A stretch of 64,000 nucleotides of DNA from Terramyces sp. JEL0728 (lineage: Eukaryota > Chytridiomycota > Chytridiomycetes > Rhizophydiales > Terramycetaceae), in contig JADIIU010000018.1 of NCBI GenBank assembly GCA_027603945.1, positions 62,001 through 126,000 of the forward strand. Reading direction: 5' to 3'. The notes beneath the pieces were generated by a model. The model saw only the letters and a list, made by a program, of their open reading frames with translations, ran no database searches and was not told where the DNA came from. Below, piece by piece: positions 1 through 64,000 of the stretch. A program made the translations under genes and the position numbers. Within the stretch, counting starts at the first letter, position 1, and each line of letters begins with the position of its first letter.

Positions 1-359
1 GATTACCAGCAGGAATGGCTGGACAACCTCAAAAGGAAGATCAGGAAAAGCAGAGGCAAATGGAGGATATGAGACACAATATGGTAATACGAATGTAACA
101 GCAGTTGGCGCAAATCTTGAGCGGTGAAGCTAGAGAACGTTTGGCTCGTATCCGTATTGTAAAGGAAGACAAGGCAAGAGGCGTGGAAGATATGATCATT
201 AGAATGGCGCAAACTGGACAAATCAGAGGAAAAGTATCGGAATCCCAACTAGTGGATTTATTAAGCCAAATCAGCGGGCAGCAGACGAAATCTACAAAAA
301 TCCAGTTTAGTCGCAGAAGATCTGGGGATGATTCTGAAGATGACGATTTTGGACTTTAA
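1..359 (+). CDS. PDCD5: PDCD5/TFAR19 family DNA-binding protein, 5' partial (copy 1)
   Basis: This is the C-terminal part of a programmed-cell-death-5 family protein, a small helical protein conserved from archaea to humans and linked in eukaryotes to chaperonin and nuclear functions. Coding is 3-83 and 105-359; a 21-nt intron lies at 84-104. The visible protein has the family core (ILSGEARERLARI, then KARGVEDMIIRMAQTGQI) and ends in a basic RRR stretch and an acidic tail with FGL. Exon 1 is missing because the window begins inside exon 2; the complete gene is in the second copy at 61681-62133. Relative to that copy it has three amino-acid changes (two in the linker near the window edge, one Gly/Glu near the end). 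The stop codon overlaps an AATAAA signal. Confidence 0.93.
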
Positions 360-378
360 TAAAACTGCTTGTTTTTAT

Positions 379-1271
379 TTACAATATTGAAATTACTCGC
401 CAGTAATACTCTGGTTCCCATTCAAATTCAAATTCACCGCCATAGGATATCAATAAGGTGTCTTTGCCGATATCTGATGATAAAGTTGCAATCCCACCAT
501 AGTTTTGGACGGCTATAACCATACTCTCGTCCTCATCGCTCGAATCCACAACAATTTTGATTTTTTCCCTTACTTCTGTCGGTACAAAACTCGATATTTT
601 TGACATGAACCCCCAACAACTGTTTGGATTCACCACGTACAGCCTAAACAGCCGCTACCGTTAAATATCGCTTACTTCTGGATAGTGGTCTCTAAAGATC
701 TCTATTAGATCTTGTAATTGTGCAAGTGAAGGATAGGTACCAATGTTTACCAGGTCCAAAACGATAGTGATTTTTTCTATTCCCTTGGGCATAATTCTGT
801 GTTAGAGATTGGATACCTAATGCATCTTTCTATGTGAAATGCTAATAAACGCGTTTGTAATTCAAATTTGATCCAGTGCAAAGGAACAAGGTAAAGTATC
901 GGATGTCCGCTGCTATCAAACCCATTAATGAATTGCTTCCCGTACTGCGAGGCGGCTTTATAATCCTCATAGCTGATTTCATTGGGTTTAAAAGTTCTTC
1001 TCCAACTCAATGTCTGTCCAAGTTTCCTTGTAGCTATTTTATGGCTCCATCCTGAAGAAAGTAATAGTCGCAGAAGGCAAAATGTATTACAATACGAAAG
1101 CTCTTGCTTCCTTTCCTTTATATCCGTCGACAATAAATTTATGCTAGCCTCTCTGAGGGTTTGGTATCCTTCCATCTGAGATTTATTTATAAACTGGATA
1201 TATTCTGGCTCCGCTGGATATTCACTCTTTGTCGCTGTGACAATAGGCAGGCTATTTTTGATCCCAAACAT
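379..1271 (-). CDS. CRAL-TRIO (Sec14-like) lipid-transfer protein (copy 1)
   Basis: A Sec14-superfamily protein, expected to bind and exchange a hydrophobic ligand such as a phosphoinositide precursor in the cytosol or at membranes. The model is complement(379..654, 676..796, 817..1271), 283 aa, with introns of 21 and 20 nt. The N-terminal CRAL-TRIO-N helices hold a ...LLRLLLSSGW...KLGQTLSWR pattern. The lipid-binding domain follows, with IMPKGIEKITIVLDLVNIG and then YPERLFRLYVVN after the second intron, and it ends with EYGG-like YGGEFEFEWEPEYY. I start at the ATG at 1271, because an upstream in-frame ATG would overlap GNL1. The divergent GNL1 start lies only 23 bp away, so the two genes must share a promoter. 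The ligand is unknown. Confidence 0.9.
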
Positions 1272-1294
1272 AGTCGTGGAGTGTCTTTTTTTAA

Positions 1295-2880
1295 ATGGCA
1301 AGTGTGAAATCCCACCACAAAAGTAGAGGTGCACCAAAGCAGGACAAGAAAAATGGAGAGACAGAGGTTAAAACAATGCCAAGGACAGAACCAAATCTAA
1401 CCTCGATATTTGCGAAACTGACTGTTGAACAAACTGAAGAGAAAAAGATGCTTTCACAACTACCAATTATTCGTAATCCATCCAATCTCCTGGTTGATAT
1501 CGACCCAGACAACACATTCCTCGATATCCCAAAGCGACCACCGTGGACTATGGACGAAACCGCGCAAGAATTGAACAAAATTGAAACCAACTATTTCCAA
1601 GATTATCTGGCAAATATCAATGTTGATTCGTACTTTGAAAGAAATCTAGAAGTATGGAGACAATTATGGAGAGTTGTGGAAATGTCTGAAATCATTCTCA
1701 ATGTAGTCGATATTAGAAATCCGTTAATCCACTTTTCGATTCCATTATATAATTATGTAAAAGATATGGGAAAGCGGATGGTACTTGTATTCAACAAGAT
1801 TGATTTGGTACCAGAGGCTAATGTTGAACTTTGGAAAAGATATTTCAGTGATAAATTTCCAGATATAGCCGTTACTTGTTTCTCATGCAATCCAAAAATC
1901 AATTCAAAGAATGTATCAAACCGATATTACTATTCGGTTGGAGTTACCGAGGTAATTGCAGCATGTAGAGATATGAATGTGGATAAAGTAAGTGTAGATT
2001 GGGATGGACTCGTCAAGTCTCTAAAAAATGATCTTGCTCAGAGAGAGAAAAAGGCTCTCGATGCTCTTGCGCGATTAGAAGCTGGTCGAGGCGGACTGAG
2101 GGAAGACAAGGTAAGACACGGCAGAAGAAGGCGGCAAAGAGAAGCAGATTCGTCTGAACAAGAATCAGAAAATGAGGAGTTGGCAAACGATACTATACAT
2201 ATTGACCAGGAGGATAATCTTGATAGCAATTCAAATGAATATATGACAATTGGCTTAATAGGCCAGCCTAACGTCGGCAAATCATCTTTAATCGTAACCT
2301 TTACTTGACTTAGAATGCACTGAAAGGCAGGAAACTAGTTTCAGTCTCAAGGACTCCTGGACACACTAAACATTTTCAAACTATTTATTTAACAAGCAAT
2401 CTACGTTTATGCGACTGCCCTGGATTAGTTTTCCCATCCAACTTGTCAAAACACCTGCAAATCCTGTCTGGCATCTACAATATTTCCCAAGTTCAAGATC
2501 CTTTCTCGTGCATTAGGTTTGTTGCTGAATCAATACCGTTAATTCAGCAGTTGAAATTGACACATCCAGAGCAGGATGAAAACGGATTCTTTTGGTCGCC
2601 ATGGACTATTTGTGAAGCATTTGCATTCAGTAAAGGGTTTCTTAATGCCAAATCCGGCCGCCCAGACGTGTACAGAGGCGCCAATCTAATGCTGAGAATG
2701 GTTATGGATGGACGAATTTTAATTTGCTTCAAACCAAATAGATATGAAGCGCCTGCCACGACACGCCAAGAAGAACCTGATTCTGAAGAAGATATCTCCT
2801 TCAATAGAAAATCAGACAAGAAAAAGTTGAAGAAAAAGGCAAAGCAAAGATTGCTGGCTGTATCATTATCCGACGAATAA
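1295..2880 (+). CDS. GNL1: GNL1-type circularly permuted GTPase (copy 1)
   Basis: A YlqF/YawG GTPase of the GNL1/HSR1 type, a family tied to ribosome biogenesis. The model is 1295..2293 and 2314..2880, 521 aa, with one 20-nt intron (gtaacctttacttgacttag) inside the P-loop region. The circularly permuted order is clear: WRQLWRVVEMSEIILNVVDI, G4 NKID near residue 167, then G1 GQPNVGKSSL near 322-331 and G3 DCPGL near 367. Between G4 and G1 is a charged, coiled insert with an RRRR run. The C-terminus is lysine-rich. Without splicing the protein stops just after G1, so the intron is required. A second, window-truncated copy begins at 63069. Confidence 0.94.
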
Positions 2881-2904
2881 TTTTTTTTGTTTTTCAAAAA
2901 TAAA

Positions 2905-4453: not shown

Positions 4454-4454
4454 A

Positions 4455-4941: not shown

Positions 4942-5063
4942 TTTCAAAAAAAAGGTAAAATAAATCCACAGCTCTCATTTCGTTTTATTTAATATTAATA
5001 TTATTGCGAAATACAACCAAAAAGTCGCCCATTTCAAGCCTGGCACTTTTCCAAAAATACAAA

Positions 5064-10439: not shown

Positions 10440-10468
10440 ATAAACTGGCATTCACTTTGTGCTATTAT

Positions 10469-13400
10469 TTATTTTGCCCATGCATTTATATAATCAAGAT
10501 ATTCAGGTATTGTTGGGTCTTGAGGTTTCGATTTCTCCTCCTCATCTTTGACTTCATTTGCCACGAGAGCCTAAAATTAACTAGATCTACCTTTTGTCTT
10601 CGTTCCATACCGTCAAAAATAGCATCTTGATAATACTCCAAGTTGTGGTGCAAAATCGATTCTCTGATACCTCGGGTATCCAACCACGCCAAGAGTTGCT
10701 CAATCTAGGTTAATTTGCAAATGTACTTGCGTTGTGTCAGAGTAATATCTCCACTGCCCGTCTAATAGCCCCGTCCTTAGTTCAGATTGGTGAAAGTATA
10801 GCCCTGTATTCTTGCTTTCATCAGTTTCAGATCCAAAGAATTCTTCAACAAACAAATAGCCAGTGGAATATTCGTGTAGGATTTCTGGATCTGGAGCCAT
10901 ATTACCCCTGTCCGAAGCGGGGAATTTTGTTACAGCGTCTAACGAGATCATTCCATAACCCCCGTCAAACCACCAGTATCTGTTACAAAATCTATCTCTT
11001 CCCAACGGTTTTGATCGGATAATTGCTTGAGTTGCTCTTAGCTCAAATTCGATGATTTCTTCCCTGCGACAGTAGGTTCGATCTTTTTCCTCCATTTCTT
11101 CATGTTGCTTGTTTTAAATTTTGCCTACCTTTTTTAAAGTCTGCTGTTCATCAGTCAACTCAACTTCTTGTGCTTGCTCAACCTTCTTTTCCTTTTCGAC
11201 CTTCATCTTTCTTCTTATTCTTGCACTGCGGATAGGATTTCTGTGTTAGAAAATCAATACAGTTCGTTATCGGAATCGTTGTTGTCACTGTTATGGTCAA
11301 TCTCGTCATTTTCAACTGGTGCCTCGACATTGGCATTCTCGGCTAGCTGCGGATTTTGCTTGATAAATTCAGCAAGGGCTGCAGCGTTTTGTTTTCTGGT
11401 ACGCACTAATTCTCTTTGTTCCTTTTTTAACTCTGTGATTTTTTCAAAGGCTTCATCACGATAAACACGGATTTGATCGCAATCCGGTACTAGTTCGTCC
11501 ACCAAAAAAGCCAACACTTCAATTTTTTCATCGGCAGAAAGGGTAAGGAAACCTAATTCGGTCCTTGTGCATAATTCTTCAAACCCAAGTAAGCCAACTT
11601 TCTTTTTTGGCTTTGGAGGGGCTTTAGATTTAGGTGTTGCCTTCTTCTTGCTCTTTGGAGCTTTACTTGGCGTTCTCTTGTCCGGCTGCGACCTAGTTGA
11701 ACGAGTAGATCTATTTGATTTAGGAGCTTTTTCGGGTTCCCAATCTTCTTCTTCATCAGACAATTCAATAGTCTTTCTCTTCTTTGGGGTTTTTTGAACT
11801 TTGGGGGTTTCTTCTTCCTCTTCCAATTCATCAACTTCCTCTTCTTCGTTTGTTGTGCCAGAGAGTTCAACGTCAACCGGTGTGTCTACATCCATGCTTT
11901 CTTCTGCCTCTACAGGTTTTACTGCAGTTGGTTTTAGCAGCTTCAGTAATATTTGCCATTTAGAAGCAGCAACTTTGGGTTTGTAACAATCTTTAACAAG
12001 CCCAAACAAAGCAACCGACCATGCTTTTAGATTTTCAACTGGCGAGTAATTGATGTAGGCTTTAGTACCCTTTTTTGGTTTCTTTGCTGGTGCTCCCCAT
12101 TGCCCAGTTCTCCACTTAAACCATTGATCGACACCAACCTTTTCTGAATCATTGAAACTTTTGTAGTGCGTCGCCAGCAGTGTTATTAACTCATTCTGTT
12201 CGGCATCCTCTGAATACTTTCCATCTTCATTTAATTCAGGCACTCCAAAATATAATGGGTTAGTGTTGTTTACGTAGTCATATTTCGAATGATATTCACC
12301 ACAAGCAATGCTTAGCAAACTTGCAAATATTTCACAAATCAAATCACACGGAGGATCAACTTCACTGTAGGATAATGCTGCAAGGAAATCATGGAATTTG
12401 GAAGGATACAAACGCAAAGGCTTTCCATAGACTGTGATGAATGTGTAAACTCTAATGAGGTTGAATGCGTTTGCCGGCGACACTGCTCCATAGTCAGTAC
12501 TAAGTATAGGTCTTTCTGGCGCAGGTGTGTCAAGTTTTTTTGCATATTGTGGGTCGAATAGTTCAGTGTCTTCGATTGGAGAATTATACACTAGATTAAT
12601 GCAGGAACTACAATCCATTGGCTTTCTTTTTCCCCTCTTCCCCGAAGGATCGTCTTCATATTTTTGTTTGAGACCAAAATTCTCTGGAGGCTCACTTGGT
12701 AATCCATACTTGATGACAAGCGATGGCTATATTATAAATCAATCACCTTCACATGCCATGGACTGCCTATCCATTTATCCTTTGTAGCAACCTCCTTTAC
12801 ATACTTTTTAAATGTTTGCTTCGACAATTGCTGCCTCCCTCTGCGCATTTGGCCTGGCAAAACTATATACTCTTTGGATGGCATGCTGCAAAGTTGAATT
12901 CTGTAATGGTAAGGATCGTCTGGGACTCTGCTATTGTCCTCGCGGGCTTCTCTAGCTTCTCTTTGCATTTGACGCTTGTCTCCCACCCTTTTTTCTAAGG
13001 TAACCGGAACAGTTTGATCTATTTTTTCCAATATTATTGCTTTTTCAACTGATCTTTCGGCTCCAGCAGTTGGGACATCAATGTAAACATATTCATTCAC
13101 AAATCGAGTACCACGGAAATAATCATAAATGTGATCTACCAAGTCATTTAGAGAGAGACGATCTAGATTAAATATCGATTTACTGAAATGGATGAGTTCC
13201 AAAGTTGGTTTGATCCATACTGGAGGGAATTTAGCATCCAGTTTTGCAGTTGTTTTTCTTTCCGACTCCAAGGCAGCTTTGTATGTGAGGTTCTGCTTGT
13301 TTGTCATTTCGCAAGTCCACATTTTCTGTCGATATAGCACAATGCGGTCGTAATAATCCCTAAGGTTACAACAGGCTACTGATACGATGTGAAGATTTCG

Positions 13401-23837: not shown

Positions 23838-25348
23838 ATGGTAAACATTTACTTACCAAGACTGTAACTATAAAAAAAAGAAAACTAAATGCGAAAGCAG
23901 ATTCAAATGATATCCAAGGTACACTCCATTAACACAGCTACCATTGATGATTTTGGACAAAAGTACCACTGCGATTCATGTTCAAAAGATATCACTCACT
24001 TGATAATTCTACGATGCGCAATATGTGCAGATTTCGATTTATGTATCGATTGTTTTTCAAAAGGAACGGAACTCAAAGATCACAAAAAGAATCACGATTA
24101 TAGAGTAATTGTACACTGTGTTTTATTTAGGATGTGCTTGATTTTCCTATTTTTGAACCGGATTGGGGTGCTGATGAAGAATTGCTGTTAGTTGAAGGAT
24201 TAGAAATGTTTGGAATAGGGAATTGGGAACATATAAGTGAGCATATTGGAACAAAGAATAGCAAGGAGTGTAATGATCATTATCAGAGGGTATATGTCGA
24301 TGCAGAGAGTTGGCCTTACCCGGATATGAGTGAAAGGTTTGAAATGTCGCCTGGAAAAAGGCTAAGAGCACGACCACCTGGATATCAGGTTACAAAATTA
24401 CCGAAATATCCAAGAGCACCTGCATCTCAGCCTGTTAATCATGAAATTGCCGGGTATATGCCTGGGAGAAAAGAGTTTGAACACGAATTTGAAAACGATG
24501 CCGAACAGATTGTAAAGGATATTGAAATCACAGAGGAAGATACAAAGGAAGAGATTGGTAATCAATACTTATAGTAGATTTAAAAGCTGTGGTGATGGAT
24601 ATTTACAATACAACCTTGGATCGCAGAGCTCAACGCAAAAAAATTGTTTTTGATAGAGGATTGACAGATTTCAAGCGAGTAACTGATAATAATGTAGATT
24701 CAAAGCATAGAAAAAAAGAGACCGAAAGAAGAAAAGGAATTATACCAAAAATACAGAATATTTGCTAAAATGATGACTCAGGAAGATTTCCACATTTTTA
24801 TGGAAGGACTTACAAGTATATTTTTCTTGACAAAGATGAACTAAGGCTAAGGCAAAAGATTTACCAACTGCAAGAATATATACGGATGGGAGTAACTACA
24901 ATGAAAGAGGCTAATGACTATGAAAAGGATAAACAAGCGCGGATTAATAGCAAGGCAGCTGGATACATGACACATATAGAACGATCAGCACTTCGACGAA
25001 GCTCCTCTAAACTGGATGACGTAATATTTTGTTAATCAGTTACCATTGACGCCGGTTCGGCACCCATTAGCGCAATCAATGTTACCACACAAAGTAGCCA
25101 ATGCACTAGATATATCCAAAGCCGATGGTGTAGATTTGCTGAGCGATGGTGAAAAAATGCTGTGCAGTACGCTCCGTATCTTTCCCCGAGCTTACATTTC
25201 CATCAAAGACACTGTCCTAAAAGAATACGCTTCGAAAGGTGTAATGCGTAAACGAAACTTTAGAGCACTTGTAAAGATTGATGGCAACAAATCTTCGAGA
25301 ATCTACGATTATTTTGTAGAAATGGGCTGGCTAACTAATAAAATATAA
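23838..25348 (+). CDS. ADA2: SAGA/ADA transcriptional adaptor Ada2
   Basis: Ada2 couples Gcn5 acetyltransferase to SAGA. The model is 23838..23840, 23861..23918, 23938..24110, 24131..24557, 24578..24678, 24698..24815, 24836..25020, 25040..25348, 457 aa, with seven introns of 19-20 nt. Exon 1 is the ATG alone. A ZZ zinc finger (YHCDSC, CAICADFDLCIDCF) is followed by the SANT region (IFEPDWGADEELLLVEGLEM, NWEHISEHIG), the central YQKYRIFAKMMTQEDFHIFM / QLQEYIRMGVTT block, and a C-terminal SWIRM domain (LLSDGEKMLCSTLRIFPRAY). An alternative start at 23889 would drop two introns but breaks the frame after the third exon less naturally; I prefer the spliced start. Confidence 0.9.
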
Positions 25349-45574: not shown

Positions 45575-46762
45575 ATGCTCAAGTTGCTTTTTGCTTCAAT
45601 AATTTCTGCTTCACCTTTGCAACAGCGACCTTTATTCTCTCCGGAAGATCGTTTAATTTCCACCAGCGAAGGACAATCACAATGGATGTCGGAAATGCAA
45701 GTAATGCTTTGTTTAACGAGATTTTTGAACTATACAAGGACGGCGTAAAGTTCATTGACTTGACTGATGGTGATTTCGATTATTTGGAGCAGCACGCTGC
45801 AATTAATATTGCTTCCAACCCTGGTAATTTTTAGTTTATCAGATTTCCCAACTAAACCATCGTACCAAAACATTGCAAACCCGCTTATTGAGAAAATTGA
45901 TACAAATAGAATGGAAGAGTTTTTGACTGCATTTTCAGGATTTCATACTCGTTACTTCAAGTCTGATTCCGGAAAAGAGTCTTCCCAATGGTTGTTTGAT
46001 CAATTGGAATCGCTCGCTGAAAATAATCCTAGAGACGATGTCAAGTTTACTGTTACCAAAGTTATCCACACCTGGAAACAATTCTCTGTTATTGCGCGAT
46101 TTGAAAGCGTAGAATCTGACAAAGAGGATATTGTTGTGCTCTCTGCTCATCAAGATTCCGTCAACCAATGGAATCCATGGTTTGGTCGCAGCCCGTAATC
46201 CTTGCTAATCTAGTGGTGCAGATGACGATGGTTCCGGAACAACAACCGTTTTCGAAGCATTAACTGTTTTGTGGAACCACGGATTTGTTCCAAAGCGTCC
46301 ATTGGAATTCCACTTTTACTCTGCAGAAGAAGGCGGGTTGCTTGGAAGTCAAAAAGTAGTAGCGCAATATGTCAAGGAAAAAATTCCTGTTTACGGAGTT
46401 TTCCACAACGATATGACTGGATATCAGCCAGAGGATACAAAGCCAATTGTTGCTGTTAATACTGATAACGTCAACGGCCCACTCACAAAGACTTTTGAAA
46501 TGATTGCAAGCACTTATGCTGGAGTCCCGTGGGAATATACAAAGTGCGGCTATGCCTGCTCTGGTAATTATATAATGACCTAGATCATGCTTCATGGACC
46601 AAGGCTGGCATTCCTTCTACATTTACTTTTGAAGCCAAGTTTGAAAAACATTCGCCATTTATTCACACCACTCAAGACACAGTTGAGCATATTGATTTCA
46701 AGCACATGGCTTCCTTTGTCAACAACGTTATTGGGTTTGCTGTAGAGTTATCCTACTACTAA
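45575..46762 (+). CDS. Secreted M28 leucyl-aminopeptidase-type metallopeptidase 1
   Basis: A 369-aa zinc aminopeptidase of family M28. The model is 45575..45700, 45721..45823, 45843..46194, 46214..46563, 46584..46762, four introns of 19-20 nt. It begins with a hydrophobic signal peptide (MLKLLFASIISASP). The two-zinc site is complete: HQDS in [20 protein letters not shown] in [13 protein letters not shown], then D in NDMTGYQ and [12 protein letters not shown]. The splice at 46195-46213 builds GADDD, and at 46564-46583 it joins CS to DHASW. A tandem paralogue follows at 46945. Expected to trim N-terminal residues of extracellular peptides. Confidence 0.88.
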
Positions 46763-46944: not shown

Positions 46945-48146
46945 ATGAAGCTGCTCCTAGCATACTCAATTCTAGCCGCACCAGCACATCGTCCACTCTT
47001 TTTCCAAAACGATAATTTAGATGTAGGAGTCACCAAATTCAATCCCAATCACCGCTTAATTTCCACGGCACCAGGAAAACAGGAATGGATGACCGAACAA
47101 CAAGTATTTGCTATTAACTAGATCTTTAAACTATACCGATCAAAGACTAAATTTATTGATTTGACTGACGGCGAATATACTTTATTCAATCAAAAGAAGC
47201 GCAATCCTGTGTATCCAACCAAAACAAACGAAGCGCAATCAGTAAACGATCTGATCAAGCAAGTATCTACTGATCGCATGGAAACCTTCCTGTCGTCATT
47301 TTCTGGTTTCCATACGCGCTACTACAACTCCAAATCCGGTAGGGAATCAAGCCAATGGCTATACGATCAATTATCAGATATCAGCGGTAGATCCGATGTT
47401 ACGTTAACTGTAACTAAATTTGAACATTCCTGGGAACAATTTTCTGTAATTGCTCGATTTGAAAAAGTTGGTAATACGAACGACGAGATTGTGATCTTGT
47501 CCGCTCATCAAGATTCCGTCAACCAATGGAATCCATGGTTTGGTCGTAGCCCGTAATCCTTGCTAATCTAGCGGTGCTGATGACGATGGATCTGGCACTA
47601 CAACTATCATTGAAGCATTGACTGTTTTGTATGAAAATGGTTTCGTACCTGATAGACCTTTAGAATTTCATTTCTACTCTGGTGAAGAGGGTGGTCTGTT
47701 GGGCAGCCAAAAAGTGGTTAAAAAATACACTGACGATGATATCAACGTTTACGCTGTTCTCCACAACGATATGACTGTAATAATACATTAATTTAGGGCT
47801 ACCAGCCGGACGGTATCTCGCCAGTCATAGGGATATCGACGGATAACGTTGACAAGAAGCTCTCAAAAGTTCTTCAAATCATTTCCGAAGAATACGCTGG
47901 GATAAAATGGGTAAACACTAAATGTGGTTACGCATGTTCAGATCATGCATCTTGGACTAAAGCTGGTATACCTGCTGCATTTACTTTTGAAGCTGCGTTC
48001 GAAAATCAAAGGTACCAATCATTAACCAAAGCCCATTCTTGCACACTACTCAAGATACAGTCGAACATATTGATTTTGACCATATGGCTTCGTTTGTGAA
48101 TAACGTTATCGGGTTTGCGGTTGAACTGTCGAAATTTCAGCAATAA
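46945..48146 (+). CDS. Secreted M28 leucyl-aminopeptidase-type metallopeptidase 2
   Basis: Paralogue of the gene at 45575-46762, 374 aa: 46945..47103, 47122..47552, 47572..47776, 47797..48011, 48032..48146. Signal peptide [13 protein letters not shown]. Introns are 18, 19, 20 and 20 nt; the first (gtatttgctattaactag) is the shortest canonical GT-AG intron in the window. All M28 zinc ligands are present ([25 protein letters not shown]). Its second intron and the ~45 bp of coding sequence before it are identical to the paralogue, though the proteins elsewhere differ widely, indicating gene conversion. The two copies share only some intron positions: the intron near 45824 of copy 1 has no counterpart here. 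Confidence 0.88.
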
Positions 48147-52117: not shown

Positions 52118-54237
52118 CTAAACCTTGTCTGCCAATTCACCTGCTAAATCGAGCTTGGCTATGACGGAATGGTACAACCTCTTGAACTCCCAGATATCAC
52201 CACTGGTCCTCTTCAAGTCAACAATCAACAAGCCTTCAAGATTCTTGATCCTATGCACCATTACAAAGAATTTGAGGTCTGTTGTAGCTTCTTTGCGATT
52301 TTGATTGAGAATAGGAGGTAATGCACTTGTCCCATCAAACCCGCGATTATATTGTAATCCAAACTGTCTAATATATCGGAGTTTCAGCATCATATTTGTG
52401 AATGGAGACCCAGCTTTCTTTTTCGGTTGGCGTACATCAGCGTGTTTTAACACACTCAACTTGTACGGATTGTCAGTCATAGCAACATCCAAATCCATTT
52501 GTTTTAATGTCTGCACAACAATGGTTAACAGTCGGCTGGGAGGCAAGGTAGAAAGCGCATGTTGATCAATCGGTCCGGAATGATATTTGATACTTCGAAT
52601 AGACTCCATGGAGCCATAGTGAGAAAGAGACTTGCTTTCACTACGAGAATAAGATCGCGAATTCCTGTTCGCATAATCTATGGTTAGTTAACTATTACCT
52701 GTGGAGAATTTTGGTCTGTGGTCCATACTCTGCGCTCTTTTTGCTTCTTCTTGGAACTTTGATCGTTTAGAATCAAGTTGAACACTATTTCTTGAAGTTG
52801 CTTGTTTTGGACGGCTATAATTAATTTCACTCTGGGTAATTGCTGGGGAATGTTTAACTGTGTCTGTGGTCGAAATGGAGGTAATACTTGCATTTGATTT
52901 ACCGCTAACAAACGACACCTTACTCTTTATGTCTGTTGGTAGCTCAGGCACTAAATCGTCAGTCTCCACGGCAACTGTCATTTCGGGTACAGCTTCTGCA
53001 ATATTTTCTTGCTCGCTGCCAGCTTCAGGGACTGTTTCCAATGGATTCAAAGCAGGCTGCACTTCCACAACCTCCACTTTGACTGGCTCTTCTTCCAACA
53101 CCATCATATCTTGCAGGGAATAACTGATGGTAGGGATATCTTCCTCCATGTTAACAATAGACAGATCTTCATCGAATTCAACAGGCTCTTCAGGAACTTC
53201 ATGTTGACGCACTCCATTAATTGGGATTGGTGAAGCGGGTACTTCTTGAACACCATATTCTACAGGTTTCAGTAGTCCAAGATGTTCAGGTAACGGAGTA
53301 AACATAGCCCAATACGGCTGCAGCCACCTACAATTAAAGAACTATTACTTATGAGACTTGATTTCTTCCATGGTAGCTCTTTCATTCGGGTTGGTGTTCA
53401 AAATTCGCTTCAGCAAATGCTTGCACTCTGACGTCAGTTTGACCGGGAAGGTCAATTCGGATTCGTAAATGTGTTTGTACAACTGTGCCATGTTTTCGCC
53501 ATCCTCGTTTTCGGGATCATCGTCAAAAGGCAACGAGCCACAAACCATTGCATACAAGATAACACCACAACTCCAGATATCCGCTAGCTCCCCAATGTAT
53601 TCGTCATTAACCACCAATTCTGGCGCGGCATAAACCGGCGAACCGCAGCTAGTGGATAATATACGGTCGCCCATAGGCTGATAAAAATTTGCAAACCCAA
53701 AATCTGTGATAATCATATTGCGGTTTTTGTCCAAAAGCAAGTTTTCCAGTTTCAAATCACGATGAACGTATCCGTTGTGGTGCAAAAAGGATACACCTAA
53801 GATTAAATCTATCGAGAACCATCAATCAACTGGAAAAAGAATTTGGCAGCTTCTTTTTCAGACAGGTTTTGTCTCGACAGGATATATTCAAACAGTTCAC
53901 CTCCGGATGCATATTCCAGAACCATTCCAATATGAGTATCATTTTCAATTACTTCAATCAGGTGAACCAAGTTGGGATGGCTCACAGTTCTTAGAATGCC
54001 AATTTCTCTTTGCAATTTAAATCTCTTTTCTGTAGTAGTAACAGAATCCTTTTTGATAAACTTGATGGCAACCTAAATTTAAGCGCCAACTACTTCTTCT
54101 CCGCTAGTTATATGATATCCAAGTTTAACTTTTCCGAATTCACCTTCTCCGATAGTTCTGCCAAGCCTGTAAGGGCCAAAGGTCCCTGTATTTTTATGCG
54201 AGTATGCTAAGTATAAGTTTGCGGACTTACTAGACAT
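52118..54237 (-). CDS. CAMKL (KIN1/Kin4-like) kinase with KA1 domain, paralogue 1
   Basis: Ser/Thr kinase with a C-terminal KA1 membrane-binding domain. The model is complement(52118..52677, 52699..53327, 53349..53796, 53820..54072, 54094..54237), 677 aa, introns of 21-23 nt. Catalytic motifs are intact: GEGEFGKVKLG, VAIK, HRDLKLEN, DFGFAN, AAPELV. A long acidic, Ser-rich linker leads to KA1 (YHSGPIDQHALSTLP, then FGLQYNRGFDG and GDIWEFKRLYH). A further GT...AG segment of 24 nt at 54207-54230 near the start contains no stop and keeps frame; I leave it coding. It is one of four tandem paralogs in the same direction. Confidence 0.85.
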
Positions 54238-54402: not shown

Positions 54403-56167
54403 TCATATTTCTCCCTCAATTTCAAAGACAAAGTCCTTGTAAAATCGCTTGAATTCCCAAATGTCACCGTCGTACCTTTTCATATCGACAGTGAAGAGAC
54501 CATCCAAATTTTTCAGTCTGTGAATCGCTACCGTGAATTTCAAGCCGCTTTCTGCAGCTGTATTGGTTGGCTTGTCTGGTATTGGCTTTCCATCGTATGC
54601 ATGGTTGAACTGGAGACCAAATTTCCCCATGTATATCAGGTTTTGAACCATTATTCCTGGAAAAGACATTAGCGAGTTGGCCAGTTTGTTTTTAGCCTCA
54701 GATCTTGGATGGTCGGAAGATTTCTTGACTTTAATTTTGTATGGATCTAGCGTTTCTCTGTACTGTAGCTGCATATGCTTGAGCACTTTGATGATCTTGA
54801 GTTTGATCTCATCTGGATGCATCTTACTTAGCGTTCTTTGATCGATTGGACCAGAGTGGAATTTTAGATTTTCGGTCGTTGACTTTGAAACGACGCTGTC
54901 CACCGCAGTATTTGTCCAAGCAGGAATATGGTTCTTGCTCAAGGTCGCACTGCGGATCAGCTCTGATTTTTCTTTCACTAAATTAATAAGAAATACTTTG
55001 GAAGACCGCGCTGTTACTTTCGTCCATGCTCTTAGACCGGATCGGTTCAGGGATATCTTCCACATTGGCTTGGACGTGAGGAACCTCCATAGGCAATACA
55101 GACGCTTGGCCAATCAGCGACATCGGCACAATAGAACTTTCGCCGACTGATTCTTCAATTTCGCTATCAAAAGGAAAATGTGACTCTTCATCCCATACAA
55201 GATCATAAGGAAAATACTTTACGTAATACGGCTTGCACCATCTAGGTTAGAATTGAGTACGGATGATTCTTGATTCCCTCTATATTAAGTCTGTATTTTG
55301 GATCAGGAACCAAAATGCTGCTGGCTAATGATCTGGCACTGGTTGATACATGCGATGGGTACATTAGAGTTGTGTTCATTATATACTTGTATAGTTTAAC
55401 AGCATCTTCGCCATCCAAATTTGTGCTGTCATCGTCGTATGGCAAATAACCACATAACATTGCGTACAAAATAACTCCGCAACTCCAAATATCAACGGTT
55501 TCTCCCATATATTGGTTGTTCATCACCAGTTCAGGGGCTGCATAATGCAAACTACCGCAGCTCGTAGACAACAGGTCTGCAGACCCCTTTTCAAACCAAT
55601 TAGCGAATCCAAAATCAATAATAACAATATTCTTATCCTTGTCCAACAGCAGATTTTCCAATTTCAAATCACGGTGTGCAATACCCACACTTAGTAAGTA
55701 TTCAACACCTTGAATTAACGAGAAATACCAATGATTAGCTGTGAGAAATATTTTGCAGCTTCATTCTCTTTCAGATACTGGCGCTCCTGCGAGATCATGT
55801 ATTGAAACAGTTCCCCACCACAGGCATATTCCATAACCATTCCTACATACCTCTCCGTCTCCAATACCTCATATAGTTTAGCTACATATGGATAGCTAAT
55901 TTGCTATGGTTAAATATGAATACCCTCAGGATTTCTATCTCCCGAACTAGCTTTTTGGTTAAATCCGGCGTCTTGATATCCTCCTTTTTCACCAATTTAA
56001 TTGCAACCTGCATTAGAAGCTGTTACTTCAGTATTGGTATCGAAATGGTACGCAAGTTTAACTTTTCCAAATCCTCCCTGTCCGATTGTTTTCAGCAGCT
56101 TGTAAGGACCAAATGCATTGTAATGCATCTTGCGAGGCTTCTGCTCTGGAGTGCTGTGATCAACCAT
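54403..56167 (-). CDS. CAMKL (KIN1/Kin4-like) kinase with KA1 domain, paralogue 2
   Basis: A 555-aa paralogue, complement(54403..54977, 54997..55241, 55261..55708, 55729..55903, 55924..56007, 56027..56167), introns of 19-20 nt. The glycine loop is GQGGFGKVKLA; VAIK, AHRDLKLEN, DFGFAN and AAPELV are present. The linker between kinase and KA1 is the shortest of the four. KA1 spans FHSGPIDQRTLSKM to GDIWEFKRFYKDF. Introns after '...E|VAIK' and before the Trp following the kinase domain are at the same positions as in the neighbours, confirming common descent by tandem duplication. Confidence 0.86.
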
Positions 56168-56281: not shown

Positions 56282-58218
56282 TTATTCTTCCTTCAAATCT
56301 ACTTTTTCGGATGCTTTTCCCTTTTCTAGTTCTATTTGTAATCGACCGATAAAGTCGTTGTAGAGATGCTTGAATTCCCAAATATCTCCCTTCAATCTCT
56401 TGCAGTCGACAGTATAGAGTCCTTCCAGACTCTTTATCCTATGAATGGCCACATAGAATTTCAGTTTCTTCAGCACCGGGTCCCTATTAGCTGGGACTGG
56501 AGGAATTGGTTTCCCATCAAACCCTCTATTGTATTGGAGCCCAAATTTCCCCATATACATTAGATTTTGTAGTATTAGAGCAGGGAATTCAGCCAGTGCA
56601 GACGCAATCTTGGCGCTTTTTGATTTACCCGAATAGTTTGATTTAGCATTTGCACGGATCGTATGCGTTACTGGTGCTGCAGTGGAGCTGACCACAGTAG
56701 ATTCAAAATCTGATTCTGAATCTTCTCCAAAATCTTTTTCAGTGTGCTGAACGATTTTCATCTTGTATACATTTGCAGTCAATAAAACATCCATCCCCAT
56801 TTCTGTGAATACTTTTATAACGCGCTCCATTATCAATCCCGGCTCCAAGCTGGAAATAGCACGTTGATCAATCGGTCCCGAATGCAATTTAATCTTGTCT
56901 GCAGTTTCTTTTGCAGGAGGAATAAAGGTGACCACGTTTCTGGCAGCTCTGCTAACAGTGCTGGAGCGAGACATGAAATCGTTTGCTGATATTAAATCAA
57001 AAGTACTTTTTGGAACAAAATTGCCTCTGTCCAAGCTCATTGCTCTTATAGGTAAATCAGAGTCGTCAGTGCGAGTAGCTTTAGACTTTTCTGGACCAAA
57101 TTGAAAGTTTTCCTTTTTGGTTTGAACCTGCATGACAGGGATAGCAGCTGGCTCATCCTTGTCTTCAGTTGTTTCTTCTAGTGTGTTTATATCCGTCTTT
57201 GCAGCCTCTGCTGGCAATTCCTGGGCCGCAACAGCTTCTTCAGGTACAGGAGAGATTGACTGCTTTGAAATTTTATATTTTTCATAGTACAATTTGATCC
57301 AGCTAAATTAAATCAATTTACCTATGGGTCTTAATTTCATCAATGTTGGCCCGAATGGTTGGATCCGGCACTAGAATCCTGTTGACCAGAGATTTGGCTC
57401 CGTGGGATACATGGCTGGGAAAAGTGAGCTTGGTTTCCAAAATATACTTGTAAAGCTTCTGAGTATCTTCAGAGGTATTTGGATCGTCGTCGTACGGTAA
57501 ATATCCGCACAGCATTGCGTAAAGAATAACCCCGCAACTCCAAATATCCACTGAAGCTGCAACATAAGAATCATTAATAACCAATTCCGGTGCTGCATAG
57601 CATAAACTGCCGCAATTCGTATTCAACATATTCTTTGTCTCTTGTCCAAATTTATTGGCGAATCCGAAATCAATAATTACAATATTCTTGTTTTCATCTA
57701 GAAGCAAGTTTTCCAATTTCAAATCCCTGTGGACAATCCCAAGATTTAAGAGATATTCCACTCCAACTACTAACTGCGCAAAGTATTTTGCTGCTTCGTG
57801 CTCTTTTAGATACTGCCGATGCTTTTGGGTAATCATGTATTTGAACAGCTCACCTCCGGAAGCAAAAGCAGTGACAATCCCTACGTATCTCTCTGTCTCC
57901 AACACTTCGTAAAGTTTTACAATGTATGGGTTGTCCAAACTCTACAGTTCAAGTTTAAAGTACCTTGAGGATGTCGATTTCTCTGATTAATTTTTCTGTT
58001 CTCCCGGGTTTCTGAATATCTTCCTTTTTTACAAGTTTAATAGCGACCTATATTAGAGACCTGTACCTCGTTGCCAGTGTTTACATGGTGTGCCAGCTTA
58101 ACCTTACCGAATTCTCCCTGTCCGACGGTCTTGGAAAGTCTGTATGGCCCAAATGAATTGTAATGCACCTTACGAGGAGCAGCTTTGTTAGTATCTCTGT
58201 ACCTTGCTCCACTGGCAT
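56282..58218 (-). CDS. CAMKL (KIN1/Kin4-like) kinase with KA1 domain, paralogue 3
   Basis: A 618-aa paralogue, complement(56282..57302, 57322..57941, 57964..58047, 58067..58182, 58203..58218), introns of 19-22 nt; exon 1 is 16 nt. GQGEFGKVKLA, VAIK, VHRDLKLEN, DFGFAN and AAPELV are intact. It has lost the intron found at the 'G|VEYL' position in paralogs 1 and 2. The KA1 domain contains LHSGPIDQRAISSLEP and GDIWEFKHLYNDF. The kinase activation-loop has NTNCGSLCYAAPE instead of the LSTSCGSPxYAAPE of paralogs 1 and 4, a possible specificity change. Confidence 0.87.
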
Positions 58219-58313
58219 AATGAAAGTGAAAAGTTCAAAAGCGGTTTCCATGTTTCAAGGTCCCAGACCCGATATGGAAGTGCACAAACGAAAAAATCAT
58301 AGAACTATTTATA

Positions 58314-60649
58314 TTACTTATTTTCCACTTTTAAATTCAACAGCGTTATAAATTCGTGGTACAGCTTCTTGAATTCCCATATATCACCACGGTATCTCTT
58401 TAAATCCACCGTCAGGAGCCCATCTAGATTCCTAATCTTGTGCACCATTACGTAGAATTTCAGTTTCTTTTCGCTTGGAACATGTGCGGCAGATGCACCC
58501 GGTAATGGCTTTCCATCATAACCGCGGTTGTACTGCAATCCAAACTGGCCGACATTCTTTATACTCTGCACCAAACTGAAGGGAAACGAAGCCAGGACAT
58601 TACCAATTTTACTTTTTTTCTGAGGTACTTTGGGGTTAGCATTCACTAGCCTAGTGGAAGGCGCTGTAGAAACCACTGATCGGCCAACACTAAAGTTTGA
58701 TTCCGCAAAATCGGATTCAGAATTTGAATGGTCATCAATGTGTTCATCGCCTTGACGCACCGCCTTCAGTTTGTAAGGGTCATCAGTGTACAAAACTTCA
58801 AAGCCCATTTCATTCAAAACCTTTACAATCTTTACCAGCAATTCGCTAGCAGATGCGCTAGAGAGTGCTCTATGGTCGATTGGTCCAGAATGGTGCTTCA
58901 TTCTTTCTAATTCTGTGGTGGTGAATGGGAATGCTACTCCCATATCAGACTTCAAATGTGCACGAGTGTTGTTTGAGCTTTTCCGTCCATATGTACTTTT
59001 AACAAACTCTTTGAACGATTGGGCTATGTTAATTAACAATTACTTTCTCCTCTAGTACTGTAACTTCTAGGCTGGTCAACACTTTTGGCCCTTGTAAAAT
59101 CTTTAGGTAATTCTGGCTCCTGTGGAATTTCTGGGACTTTGAGCTTTTCTAATTTTTCTAGGGATTGCCGTAACTTTTCCAACTTTTCTTGTGATTTTTC
59201 TTCCTTGATTTTGGAAGCGATGAGGTTATTTTTCAGCAAGTCGGATGATCTTGGCATATCTTCCCTAGAGAGTGTTCTAGAAATTCGTTTGCTCTTTGAT
59301 TGAGGTCTTGCAAGCTTCTCATCCGACTGCGATTTCACTGCTACTGGCTCCTTTTCTTTGGGTTGTTCTTTTGATGATTTGGCCGGCTCTGTAGTGCTCT
59401 CTTGAGTCGCTGGTTCAGGGACCGACATTTTTTCTCTTGATTGAGGAGAAGCTATAGGTGATTCTTGTTTTGGTTGAGGTTCTACATTTTTAACATCTTC
59501 AAACTTGCCCCCAGCAATTGAGTTTGTAGGAGACGGTTCTTGCAATTTTACAGCATCAAAATTCTCCACCACAGTATCCAAGCTCGAATTCATAGGGACT
59601 GTCGGTTGCGCTCCAAAAAAAGGTGTCTTTACAGGAATCGGAGCGACTAACGGAACATTTGAATTGTTTACAACGTCAGGCACGATAGCAGAATCGCTAG
59701 TCTTTGGCTTAACTGTTTTAGGATCAATGAACAAATGACGAAAATCCTGCAGGAATGGATGCTGTTTCATCTGCTGCATATTTGCACGCAGCTTAGGGTC
59801 GGTAACTAATATGATGCTGATCAAGTGTTTTGGAATTGAACGGACATGCGGCGGATAATCCAATTTGGCTTCCAGAATGTACTGATACAATTTGTTTACA
59901 CTGTCTGCTGCATTTGCCATTTCATCGTCAAATGGCAGATATCCGCAAAGCATCGCATAAAGAATTACACCACAACTCCAAATATCCGCGGATTCTCCAA
60001 CATAGCAGTCGTTAACAACCAACTCTGGTGCGGCATAACATGGACTGCCGCAGCTAGTAGAAAGGTATTCTTTTCCGCCTCCCCTGGAAAACCTGTTTGC
60101 GAATCCAAAATCAGTAATTATAATCTTCTTGTTTTTGTCCAACAGTAAATTTTCCAATTTCAAGTCTCTGTGCACAATTCCGTTATCATGCAAAAAACTA
60201 ACACCAACCAATAGCTGAGCAAAGAAATTGGCTGCTTCAAAGTCCTTCAAATAGGTCCTGGCAAGGATATGTTCAAACAACTCGCCGCCTGAATTAGCAA
60301 CAACAGTACCTGAGGCAAACTCCATTACCATTCCAATGTACCCTTCGGTTTCGATTACTTCATACAACTTAACTACATGGTGGTGGTTAATTGATTTCAG
60401 AATGTCAATTTCCCTTATTAACTTTTCCCTTCGAGTGGGATTCTGGATATTTTCCTTTTTGATGAGCTTGATTGCAATCTTGCGTTAATTAATCCTTACC
60501 TCTTTGTTTGTTCGAATATGGTATGCTAATTTCACTTTGCCAAATTCTGCTGTTAGTTAATTATCACCTCCTTGTCCAATGGTGCGGGCAAGGCGATACG
60601 GCCCAAAGGCATTATAATGAACTTTACGAGGCCCTTCTGCTGTCTGCAT
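58314..60649 (-). CDS. CAMKL (KIN1/Kin4-like) kinase with KA1 domain, paralogue 4
   Basis: The largest paralogue, 750 aa: complement(58314..59023, 59044..60288, 60310..60478, 60500..60546, 60568..60649), introns of 20-21 nt. GQGEFGKVKLA, IAIK, VHRDLKLEN, DFGFAN and AAPELV are intact. It lacks the intron before the post-kinase Trp and instead continues into a long Ser/Glu/Lys linker with a coiled coil (EKLEKLRQSLEKLEKLK). KA1 runs HHSGPIDHRALSSAS to GDIWEFKKLYHEF. The intron at 60289-60309 is 21 nt, in frame and lacks a stop, so a retained-intron form would add 7 residues inside a conserved kinase motif. Confidence 0.87.
60289..60309 (-). other. In-frame stopless 21-nt intron in kinase paralogue 4
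   Basis: On the minus strand it begins gtactgttg and ends ctaattcag. It splits ASG from GELFEHI; the other three paralogs read SGGELF or GGELF continuously, so it is intronic. It translates as seven residues (TVVANSG) if retained. The other 3n-length introns I read all carry an in-frame stop. Confidence 0.75.
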
Positions 60650-61680: not shown

Positions 61681-62133
61681 ATGGATGATGAACTTGCGCA
61701 ACTCAGAGCCAAAAGAATGGCAGAAATGAAAGCTCAAGTAGTTTAGACTTGATATTAGAGCGGACAAAGCATGGGATTACCAGCAGGAATGGCTGAACGA
61801 CCTCAAAAGGAAGATCAGGAAAAGCAAAGGCAAATGGAGGATATGAGACACAATATGGTAATACGAATGTAACAACAGTTGGCGCAAATCTTGAGCGGTG
61901 AAGCTAGAGAACGTTTGGCTCGTATCCGTATTGTAAAGGAAGACAAGGCAAGAGGCGTGGAAGATATGATCATTAGAATGGCGCAAACTGGACAAATCAG
62001 AGGAAAAGTATCGGAATCCCAACTAGTGGATTTATTAAGCCAAATCAGCGAGCAGCAGACGAAATCTACAAAAATCCAGTTTAGTCGCAGAAGATCTGGG
62101 GATGATTCTGAAGATGACGATTTTGGACTTTAA
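61681..62133 (+). CDS. PDCD5: PDCD5/TFAR19 family protein, complete (copy 2)
   Basis: The full-length version of the truncated gene at window position 1. The model is 61681..61737, 61759..61857, 61879..62133, 136 aa, two 21-nt introns, both containing in-frame stops. Start MDDELAQLRAKRMAEMKAQ, then a Gly/Pro/Gln linker and the conserved core LAQILSGEARERLARI, KARGVEDMIIRMAQTGQI, ending in KIQFSRRR and an acidic tail. Differs from copy 1 at three codons. Likely the functional gene for this small chromatin/chaperonin-linked protein. Confidence 0.94.
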
Positions 62134-62152
62134 TAAAACTGCTTGTTTTTAT

Positions 62153-63045
62153 TTACAATATTGAAATTACCCGCCAGTAATACTCTGGTTCCCATTCAAA
62201 TTCAAATTCACCGCCATAGGGTATCAATAAGGTGTCTTTGCCGATATCTGATGATAAAGTTGCAATCCCACCATAGTTTTGGACGGCTATAACCATACTC
62301 TCGTCCTCATCGTTCGAATCCACAACAATTTTGATTTTTTCCCTTACTTCTGTCGGTACAAAACTCGATATTTTTGACATGAACCCCCAACAATTGTTTG
62401 GATTCACCACGTACAGCCTAAACAGCCGCTACCGTTAAATATCGCTTACTTCTGGATAATGGTCTCTAAAGATCTCTATTAGATCTTGTAATTGTGCAAG
62501 TGAAGGATAGGTACCAATGTTTATCAGGTCCAAAACGATAGTGATTTTTTCTATTCCCTTGGGCATAATTCTGCGTTAGAGATTGGATACCTAATGCATC
62601 TTTCTATGTGAAATGCTAATAAACGCGTTTGTAATTCAAATTTGATCCAGTGCAAAGGAACAAGGTAAAGTATCGGATGTCCGCTGCTATCAAACCCATT
62701 AATAAATTGCTTCCCGTACTGCGAGGCGGTTTTATAATCCTCATAGCTGATTTCATTGGGTTTAAAAGTTCTTCTCCAACTCAATGTCTGTCCAAGTTTC
62801 CTTGTAGCTATTTTATGGCTCCATCCTGAAGAAAGTAATAGTCGCAGAAGGCAAAATGTATTACAATACGAAAGCTCTTGCTTCCTTTCCTTTATATCCG
62901 TCGACAATAAATTTATGCTAGCCTCTCTGAGGGTTTGGTATCCTTCCATTTGAGATTTATTTATAAACTGGATATATTCTGGCTCCGCTGGATATTCACT
63001 CTTTGTCGCTGTGACAATAGGCAGGCTATTTTTGATCCCAAACAT
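62153..63045 (-). CDS. CRAL-TRIO (Sec14-like) lipid-transfer protein (copy 2)
   Basis: Second copy of the gene at 379-1271: complement(62153..62428, 62450..62570, 62591..63045), 283 aa. Both introns keep their splice sites, with one substitution inside the intron nearest 62574. Three amino-acid differences from copy 1 (Ser/Asn in the DSxDEDE acidic loop, Ser/Pro before YGGEF, Ala/Thr in the DYKxASQ segment). Both copies look functional, so if the repeat is real this gene is duplicated with early divergence. Confidence 0.9.
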
Positions 63046-63068
63046 AGTCGTGGAGTGTCTTTTTTTAA

Positions 63069-64000
63069 ATGGCAAGTGTGAAATCCCACCACAAAAGTAG
63101 AGGTGCACCAAAGCAGGACAAGAAAAATGGAGAGACAGAGGTTAAAACAATGCCAAGGACAGAACCAAATCTAACTTCGATATTTGCGAAACTGACTGTT
63201 GAACAAACTGAAGAGAAAAAGATGCTTTCACAACTACCAATTATTCGTAATCCATCCAATCTCCTGGTTGATATCGACCCAGACAACACATTCCTCGATA
63301 TCCCAAAGCGACCACCGTGGACTATGGACGAAACCGCGCAAGAATTGAACAAAATTGAAACCAAATATTTCCAAGATTATCTGGCAAATATCAATGTTGA
63401 TTCGTACTTTGAAAGAAATCTAGAAGTATGGAGACAATTATGGAGAGTTGTGGAAATGTCTGAAATCATTCTCAATGTAGTCGATATTAGAAATCCGTTA
63501 ATCCACTTTTCGATTCCATTATATAATTATGTAAAAGATATGGGAAAGCGGATGGTACTTGTATTCAACAAGATTGATTTGGTACCAGAGGCTAATGTTG
63601 AACTTTGGAAAAGATATTTCAGTGATAAATTTCCAGATATAGCCGTTACTTGTTTCTCATGCAATCCAAAAATCAATTCAAAGAATGTATCAAACCGATA
63701 TTACTATTCGGTTGGAGTTACCGAGGTAATTGCAGCATGTAGAGATATGAATGTGGATAAAGTAAGTGTAGATTGGGATGGACTCGTCAAGTCTCTAAAA
63801 AATGATCTTGCTCAGAGAGAGAAAAAGGCTCTCGATGCTCTTGCGCGATTAGAAGCTGGTCGAGGCGGACTGAGGGAAGACAAGGTAAGACACGGCAGAA
63901 GAAGGCGGCAAAGAGAAGCAGATTCGTCTGAACAAGAATCAGAAAATGAGGAGTTGGCAAACGATACTATACATATTGACCAGGAGGATAATCTTGATAG
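63069..64000 (+). CDS. GNL1: GNL1-type circularly permuted GTPase, 3' truncated by window (copy 2)
   Basis: First 310 or so codons of the second GNL1 copy, ending at the window edge before the G1 P-loop. The WRQLWRVVEMSEIILNVVDI block and NKID (G4) are present, as is the basic RRRR insert. One amino-acid change from copy 1 (ETNYFQ to ETKYFQ) and one silent change near 63176. Whether it is complete cannot be told from this window. Confidence 0.93.
   Translation, partial: MASVKSHHKSRGAPKQDKKNGETEVKTMPRTEPNLTSIFAKLTVEQTEEKKMLSQLPIIRNPSNLLVDIDPDNTFLDIPKRPPWTMDETAQELNKIETKYFQDYLANINVDSYFERNLEVWRQLWRVVEMSEIILNVVDIRNPLIHFSIPLYNYVKDMGKRMVLVFNKIDLVPEANVELWKRYFSDKFPDIAVTCFSCNPKINSKNVSNRYYYSVGVTEVIAACRDMNVDKVSVDWDGLVKSLKNDLAQREKKALDALARLEAGRGGLREDKVRHGRRRRQREADSSEQESENEELANDTIHIDQEDNLD

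Follow-up and report, generated by a model that had tools for sequence, protein, structure and literature searches.

The nucleomorph of the chlorarachniophyte Bigelowiella contains more than 800 spliceosomal introns whose lengths cluster tightly at 18-21 bp, heterotrich introns measure 15-16 bp and mikrocytid introns 16-17 bp; among the latter, Mikrocytos and Paramikrocytos combine uniform, sequence-conserved introns of 16-17 nucleotides (nt), 224 of them in M. mackini, with a highly reduced spliceosome (PMC10245619, from the passages available). As given in the available portions of PMC9505925, Stentor coeruleus has uniform 15-16-nt introns in 18% of its genes, with the branch adenosine mostly at the tenth base, no strong branch consensus, conserved small nuclear RNAs (snRNAs) and alterations at the active-site ends of Cwc25 and Isy1, and excerpts of PMC5014332 put the introns of Paramecium and Nyctotherus at around 25 bp. 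For fungi, the accessible part of a survey of 644 genomes terms a mean intron of 63 bp relatively short and gives 3.93 introns per kb for two species of Chytridiomycota (PMC8476143). No report of tiny introns in any fungus appears among the literature matches listed, and the passages available from PMC5364385, PMC6572847, PMC13391722 and PMC11649378 contain no chytrid intron lengths. Here we describe the introns of Terramyces sp. JEL0728 (Chytridiomycota, Rhizophydiales, Terramycetaceae) in a stretch of 64,000 nt (contig positions 62,001-126,000; hereafter the window) from an assembly of 15,016,339 bases in 231 contigs, and in a 264-kb sample, out of 15.0 Mb, that joins the window with 100 kb from each of two other contigs (C1 and C2). 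GT-AG (U2-type) spliceosomal introns about 20 nt long almost certainly occur throughout this genome.

Terramyces is a free-living soil saprobe. Its 15-Mb fungal nuclear genome shares a narrow band of tiny introns with the Bigelowiella nucleomorph, which is, however, what remains of an endosymbiont's nucleus and has an extremely reduced genome. Mikrocytids likewise have uniform tiny introns but, as the available text describes them, are intracellular parasites with a reduced spliceosome. Stentor resembles Terramyces in its uniform tiny introns and near-fixed branch adenosine (PMC9505925, in the portions available), whereas Terramyces introns are 19-21 nt long, place the branch adenosine at +14/+15, carry a strong YTAAY motif and occur, at least one per gene, in 139 of 187 gene models of the 264-kb sample (refined model, described below). 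Paramecium and Nyctotherus also have very short introns only, theirs being around 25 bp in the excerpts available. Ordinary fungal introns, including those of other chytrids, have GT-AG ends and high density as in Terramyces, and a YTAAY branch motif is usual in them. At about 20 nt, Terramyces introns are a third of the 63-bp mean, and their density in the refined model is 2.2 per kb of coding sequence, before correction for decoys, compared with the 3.93 per kb given for chytrids in the available part of the survey. Terramyces thus adds a fungus to the known systems of uniform tiny introns, which is surprising given its phylogenetic position and its retained recognition factors.

Because our refined gene model has the internal spacing of introns built in, the length peak rests on counts of pattern pairs and on motif-free models. 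In the window, sequences matching GTA[ACT]..TRAY..[ACT]AG, counted without any gene model, occur 32, 30 and 16 times at 19, 20 and 21 nt against expectations of 4.8, 4.3 and 4.2 from 20 first-order Markov sequences, and spacings elsewhere between 12 and 60 nt lie mostly near chance. Slight excesses of such pairs were also seen at 40 nt (11 vs 4.7) and 55 nt (13 vs 3.8). We then turned to a self-trained model based on codon statistics, in which all intron lengths from 10 to 200 nt are equally likely a priori and a dinucleotide pair is the sole intron signal. At 18-22 nt, this motif-free model places 31 GT..AG introns in the window and 1-6 for each of 15 other pairs, and in the 264-kb sample 131 GT..AG introns compared to 7-22 for each of eight other pairs. 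The GT..AG lengths in the larger sample peak sharply (19 nt, 28 introns; 20 nt, 58; 21 nt, 28; 22 nt, 15), with 0-7 per length for the eight control pairs, indicating that the peak at 19-22 nt is specific to GT..AG in both comparisons, although the codon model of the control runs was trained on GT..AG models and carries some bias toward that pair. The narrow distribution below 30 nt agrees among the window and the 100-kb stretches of C1 and C2, and 19-21 nt predominates as well at further single loci, for which the model was restricted to 15-30 nt.

The refined model combines motifs with spacing terms and allows lengths up to 60 nt; it was built after the homologue results described below were known, without use of the alignments. 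It predicts 503 introns in 264 kb, 478 of which fall within 16-25 nt (19 nt, 122; 20 nt, 187; 21 nt, 111; 22 nt, 36) and have a G+C content of 31%, and 25 of which measure 27-60 nt. In a separate set of 480 introns, 125 have a length that is a multiple of three, a possible shortage, though stop-free introns of this kind are less visible to the predictor. After subtraction of decoy predictions, some 364-420 introns remain, which by simple scaling corresponds to about 21,000-24,000 genome-wide. Within the window the model places 106 introns of 16-24 nt in 36 of 49 genes (16 nt, 1; 18 nt, 1; 19 nt, 31; 20 nt, 41; 21 nt, 23; 22 nt, 6; 23 nt, 2; 24 nt, 1); 100 start with GTA, and the acceptors are TAG (63), CAG (27), AAG (15) and GAG (1). 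Leaving out a duplicated end, this amounts to 103 non-redundant introns in 35 genes, closely matching an earlier note on the same DNA, which had estimated about 100 in some 35 genes, mostly of 19-21 nt, with GTA(A/C/T) donors and TAG, CAG or AAG ends. The same note had regarded a near-uniform 20-nt population in a fungus-like nuclear genome as exceptional, and such a population is what the stretches of three contigs from this chytrid agree on. It had also allowed for a single exception of 16 nt; we predict a candidate for the same intron, with low confidence, at 41021-41036 in a gene model that is itself weak. In both gene copies near the window ends, a 57-nt GT-AG prediction (1034-1090 and 62808-62864) has a length that is a multiple of three and is probably false.

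The following 32 of the 106 window introns, mostly those with independent support, are given individually (P0241 and P0122 are deposited Terramyces proteins, P0242 and P0121 Boothiomyces proteins):

84..104, + strand: 21-nt intron of a PDCD5-like gene (the name is our own reading), copy 1 of the duplicated end; gene models
61858..61878, + strand: 21-nt intron of the second PDCD5-like copy; a single-base difference from the intron at 84-104
2294..2313, + strand: 20-nt intron of an LSG1-like GTPase (our own reading), junction KSSLI|NALKGRK; the open frame stops at 2308
10571..10590, - strand: 20-nt intron of an Itc1-like chromatin-remodelling gene; gapless against P0242
10705..10726, - strand: 22-nt intron, Itc1-like gene; gapless against P0242; P0241 runs into the intron and ends early
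11108..11128, - strand: 21-nt intron, Itc1-like gene; gapless against P0241 and P0242
11241..11260, - strand: 20-nt intron, Itc1-like gene; gapless against P0241 and P0242
12591..12611, - strand: 21-nt intron, Itc1-like gene; absent in P0242 and P0243, seven residues retained in P0241
12727..12746, - strand: 20-nt intron, Itc1-like gene; gapless against P0241 and P0242
13163..13183, - strand: 21-nt intron, Itc1-like gene; absent in P0242 and P0243, seven residues retained in P0241
13360..13379, - strand: 20-nt intron, Itc1-like gene; 20 nt in the refined model, an earlier 26-nt call lacking two residues of P0241 and P0242
24111..24130, + strand: 20-nt intron of an ADA2-like gene; earlier called as 26 nt, 20 nt in the motif-free and refined models
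24558..24577, + strand: 20-nt intron, ADA2-like gene; gapless against the solved ADA2 chain 9ynv_M
24679..24697, + strand: 19-nt intron, ADA2-like gene; gapless against 9ynv_M
24816..24835, + strand: 20-nt intron, ADA2-like gene; gapless against 9ynv_M
32899..32917, - strand: 19-nt intron of methionyl-tRNA synthetase; gapless against 5gl7_A and P0121; the deposited Terramyces protein is without 32 residues
33556..33574, - strand: 19-nt intron, methionyl-tRNA synthetase; gapless against 5gl7_A, 1rqg_A, P0121 and P0122
34175..34196, - strand: 22-nt intron, methionyl-tRNA synthetase; gapless against P0121
41021..41036, + strand: possible 16-nt intron of low confidence; weak gene model
46195..46213, + strand: 19-nt intron of peptidase paralogue 1 (M28-like, our own reading); column, phase and intron sequence the same as at 47553-47571
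47553..47571, + strand: 19-nt intron of peptidase paralogue 2; shared with paralogue 1
54073..54093, - strand: 21-nt intron of SNF1-like kinase A, column 57, phase 0; position common to four paralogues
56008..56026, - strand: 19-nt intron of SNF1-like kinase B, column 57, phase 0; paralogues, and gapless against 3h4j_B and 3mn3_A
58048..58066, - strand: 19-nt intron of SNF1-like kinase C, column 57, phase 0; paralogues
60479..60499, - strand: 21-nt intron of SNF1-like kinase D, column 57, phase 0; paralogues
55904..55923, - strand: 20-nt intron, kinase B, column 85, phase 0; paralogues and solved kinases
57942..57963, - strand: 22-nt intron, kinase C, column 85, phase 0; paralogues
53797..53819, - strand: 23-nt intron, kinase A, column 144, phase 1; paralogues
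55709..55728, - strand: 20-nt intron, kinase B, column 144, phase 1; paralogues and solved kinases
53328..53348, - strand: 21-nt intron, kinase A, column 294, phase 2; paralogues
55242..55260, - strand: 19-nt intron, kinase B, column 294, phase 2; paralogues and solved kinases
57303..57321, - strand: 19-nt intron, kinase C, column 294, phase 2; paralogues

The other 74 introns of the refined model start at 655, 797, 2958, 3884, 4055, 4610, 4915, 5223, 5356, 5389, 5508, 5852, 6154, 6528, 7042, 7916, 8526, 9045, 10027, 13650, 14101, 14185, 15421, 15905, 18013, 18123, 18269, 20484, 21016, 22997, 23841, 23919, 25021, 25542, 25672, 26899, 28577, 28758, 28966, 29777, 37400, 37711, 38331, 38579, 39480, 39793, 41659, 42758, 43918, 45824, 46564, 47104, 47777, 48012, 48694, 49424, 49535, 49703, 49995, 50288, 50456, 51651, 52033, 52678, 54978, 56986, 58183, 59024, 60289, 60547, 61573, 61738, 62429 and 62571. 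Window positions 38866-42015 hold an array of SKP1-like genes (our own reading of the name), some of them intronless.

Comparison with homologues supports these short introns. For four genes, junctions left by introns from a motif-aware model restricted to 15-30 nt were aligned to solved structures or to a Boothiomyces protein, and 16 of 18 were gapless. In SNF1-like kinase B, four of five junctions lie in the aligned part and all four are gapless against two solved kinases (3h4j_B and 3mn3_A); both junctions in the methionyl-tRNA synthetase core are gapless against 5gl7_A, and one further junction is so against Boothiomyces. In the Itc1-like gene, seven of eight junctions are gapless against the Boothiomyces sp. 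JEL0838 protein, which is 87% identical, and in the ADA2-like gene, four of seven fall in the aligned part, three of which are gapless against 9ynv_M. The fourth ADA2-like junction, called with a 26-nt intron, leaves a two-residue gap that the 20-nt intron of the motif-free model closes, and the gap at the eighth Itc1-like junction, also a 26-nt call, closes with a 20-nt intron as well; the refined model chooses the 20-nt form at both sites. Introns of 24-30 nt were overcalled by the 15-30-nt model, these two 26-nt predictions being among those that homologues contradict.

The deposited Terramyces annotation was also informative. In the aligned columns inspected, and splicing differences aside, the window methionyl-tRNA synthetase is identical to deposited HDV01_002459, and across this gene and the Itc1-like gene the deposited models agree on five of the 11 introns compared, so the tiny introns are partly embedded in public annotation already. 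Where they disagree, deposited proteins carry two 21-nt introns as insertions of seven residues, are truncated at a 22-nt intron, are without 32 residues at a 19-nt intron of methionyl-tRNA synthetase and miss two more introns at gene ends. HDV01_002459 (window 31804-34264) and HDV01_002446 (10469-13504) are thus mis-spliced at tiny introns, and with six of 11 introns missed or mis-spliced in the two genes checked, deposited protein sets may hold false insertions, truncations and losses.

Paralogous genes point in the same direction. Four tandem SNF1-like kinases (window 52118-60649) share one intron at the same aligned column and phase, with lengths of 21, 19, 19 and 21 nt, and three more positions are common to two or three of them (21/19/19, 20/22 and 23/20 nt); at these columns the protein alignment has no gap even though intron lengths differ by 2-3 nt. 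We also compared near-identical copies, namely the two window ends, the window with contig stretch 126001-136000, and contigs C199 with C111, which carry nearly identical stretches of 3.1 kb. Exons differ by 111 substitutions and no insertions or deletions (indels) over 13,434 sites, and introns by four substitutions and two one-base indels over 696 sites. Window positions 1-2226 correspond to 61775-64000, and 2227-12228 to contig positions 126001-136000, meaning that at least 12 kb recurs, with 99.1-99.2% identity, about 61.8 kb further on, with which two methionyl-tRNA synthetase entries on the deposited contig agree; this repeat may be a tandem duplication or two haplotypes joined in the assembly.

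We next searched the assembly for the spliceosome. U2 snRNA is present at full length (140 bits) with its branch-recognition GUGUAGUAUCU intact; it is canonical and matches the branch motif. All six protein factors sought (Prp8, SLU7, SF1, U2AF1, U2AF2 and a Yju2-like protein of the Yju2/Saf4 family) were found, including the four for which the earlier note had proposed a search. Prp8 occupies an open frame of 1409 amino acids with up to 82% identity to other fungi, and a tree of the query with 109 of the 120 matches listed (11 near-duplicates dropped; no named Rhizophydiales among them) places the organism among fungi, next to Phlyctochytrium, with a support of 96. SLU7 and SF1 are each represented by two pieces above the cut-off, and U2AF1 by four overlapping pieces that change frame from one to another, a pattern expected from short introns; its gene model, restricted to 15-30 nt, has two 19-nt introns in the second half and misses the first intron. 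U2AF2 scores 251.7 bits, under the curated cut-off of 310.3, because introns and stops are read through; four introns of 19-20 nt are predicted in it.

Several observations weigh against a uniform population of tiny introns handled in the ordinary way. The homologue comparison is limited to four of the 49 window genes, and the 15-30-nt model made calls that homologues contradict: introns of 15, 25 and 30 nt at the 3' end of methionyl-tRNA synthetase, and a 27-nt intron inside Prp8 that would remove residues kept by solved homologues. The three methionyl-tRNA synthetase introns are no longer present in the refined model. With three letter-swapped decoy motifs, the refined model still yields 98, 114 and 58 predictions of 16-25 nt compared to 478 with the real motif, meaning that about 12-24% of its single introns may be false; decoy predictions also crowd at 19-21 nt, owing to the spacing terms of the model. 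Most kinase introns at unshared positions occur in one paralogue only. In the near-identical copies, both intron indels stem from one locus pair, intron substitutions per site are no higher than in exons, and other non-coding sites, with four substitutions over 1,101 sites, also show six gap events, at least one of them an alignment end. When motifs were used without a spacing term and lengths up to 200 nt were allowed, 309 of 454 introns measured 17-24 nt and the other 145 were scattered thinly over 25-197 nt. Lastly, neither U1 nor U6 snRNA was found by family and typed-pattern searches of the assembly, which are lossy and do not imply absence.

The scattered longer predictions and the 25 of 27-60 nt in the refined model would be expected if the 20-nt introns were accompanied by a minority of genuine conventional introns that escape our models, all of which stop at 200 nt or below. 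We consider such a mixed population rather unlikely, given that at 26-200 nt the motif-free GT..AG count in 264 kb lies below that of each of the eight control pairs, with no excess of a longer class, and that decoys produce 84-156 predictions above 26 nt in the same sequence vs 25 with the real motif.

The missing U1 and U6 genes could likewise indicate that real introns are handled by a strongly reduced, mikrocytid-like spliceosome. Two weak Rfam matches to U6 (27 bits, below the gathering score; contigs C199 and C111) are false and lie inside a protein gene with five predicted short introns, of 21 and 20 nt at the aligned site. Typed U6 patterns returned nothing, or one stretch without a U6-like core, and a typed pattern for the U1 5' end returned four places, fewer than a reversed control pattern, in none of which cmscan finds U1; of two places read by eye, one resembles a phospholipase C gene. 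The snRNA search suggested by the earlier note thus succeeded for U2 and not for U1 or U6. However, with U2 and all six protein factors sought in place and RNA searches being lossy, a reduced spliceosome appears improbable. The donor GTA(A)TT would be compatible with U1 and U6 pairing.

Intron identity, lengths and spacing rest on comparative and statistical evidence, from which we infer the splicing itself. The segments might instead stay in the messenger RNA while ribosomes hop or frameshift across them, a translational bypassing for which it can be said that most segments are 19, 20 or 22 nt long and would shift the frame if read through; the specificity for GT..AG over control pairs, the fixed spacing of the branch motif, a U2 snRNA whose recognition sequence matches that motif and the presence of branch and acceptor factors make this highly improbable. 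That they are DNA elements cut from a working genome, like the internal eliminated sequences of ciliates, or sequencing errors can be set aside as a negligible prospect, for although they are short, AT-rich and gene-interrupting, they have GT-AG ends and positions common to paralogues, recur in the same pattern on three contigs and belong to an organism whose Prp8 and methionyl-tRNA synthetase are fungal and not ciliate, and errors would carry no motifs.

Taking the segments as GT-AG introns of about 20 nt, we examined their internal geometry. The motif-free set comprises 136 introns of 18-23 nt, 120 of them with a scorable branch site, and recovers a YTAAY-like motif at fixed spacing. Counted from the first G of the intron inclusive, the branch adenosine lies at +14 or +15 in 98 of the 120, and five or six nt follow it in 97; the earlier note had placed a TAAC/TAAT/TGAC-like branch site 3-6 nt before the intron end. 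In the refined set the corresponding figures are 414 and 429 of 478, which are partly built into the model. With a tail of 5-6 nt, only 3-4 nt separate the branch adenosine from the AG, and T is frequent before the branch, at 0.39-0.69 over positions 12 to 9 counted back from the end of the intron.

These values suggest that two nearly fixed spacings, 14-15 nt to the branch adenosine and a 5-6-nt tail, would set intron length at 19-21 nt. Based on the known footprints of U6 on the 5' splice site and of U2 on the branch, 14-15 nt would be about the minimum that accommodates pairing of intron positions +1 to +6 with U6 plus a full U2:branch helix, in which U2 would pair with roughly six nt before and one after the branch adenosine, leaving a linker of about 3 nt to the U6-paired stretch. 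The Terramyces floor would then be the shortest intron that keeps both duplexes whole, and we propose that the strong YTAAY motif is kept because this distance just allows both. In Stentor, with the adenosine at +10, the two footprints would by the same analysis overlap. The earlier note had asked how recognition fits on 20 nt; room for a six-base U6:5' splice site pairing and a normal U2:branch helix answers this in part. The branch and the YAG could remain readable for SF1 and U2AF1. For U2AF2, which binds about nine pyrimidines, the few nt behind the branch cannot hold a pyrimidine tract; we propose that it must bind the U-rich stretch ahead of the branch, contact less RNA, or work mainly through protein contacts. 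The introns would have shrunk from longer ones, and we favor, as the more probable course, a genome-wide collapse onto this floor of 14-15 plus 5-6 nt with high intron density and the U2AF, SF1 and SLU7 set kept.

In yeast, SLU7 is dispensable when the distance from branch to 3' splice site is short. If our interpretation is correct, Terramyces keeps SLU7 though few or none of its introns have the long distance that is thought to make this factor important, U2AF2 can act with no pyrimidine tract downstream of the branch, and tiny introns need no reduced spliceosome. In the literature found, tiny uniform introns have so far been tied to nucleomorphs, ciliates and reduced parasites, and a chytrid that keeps its branch and acceptor factors separates intron miniaturisation from spliceosome loss. 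Terramyces would thus allow the limits of the distances between 5' splice site, branch and 3' splice site, the action of U2AF without a pyrimidine tract and the function of SLU7 to be tested.

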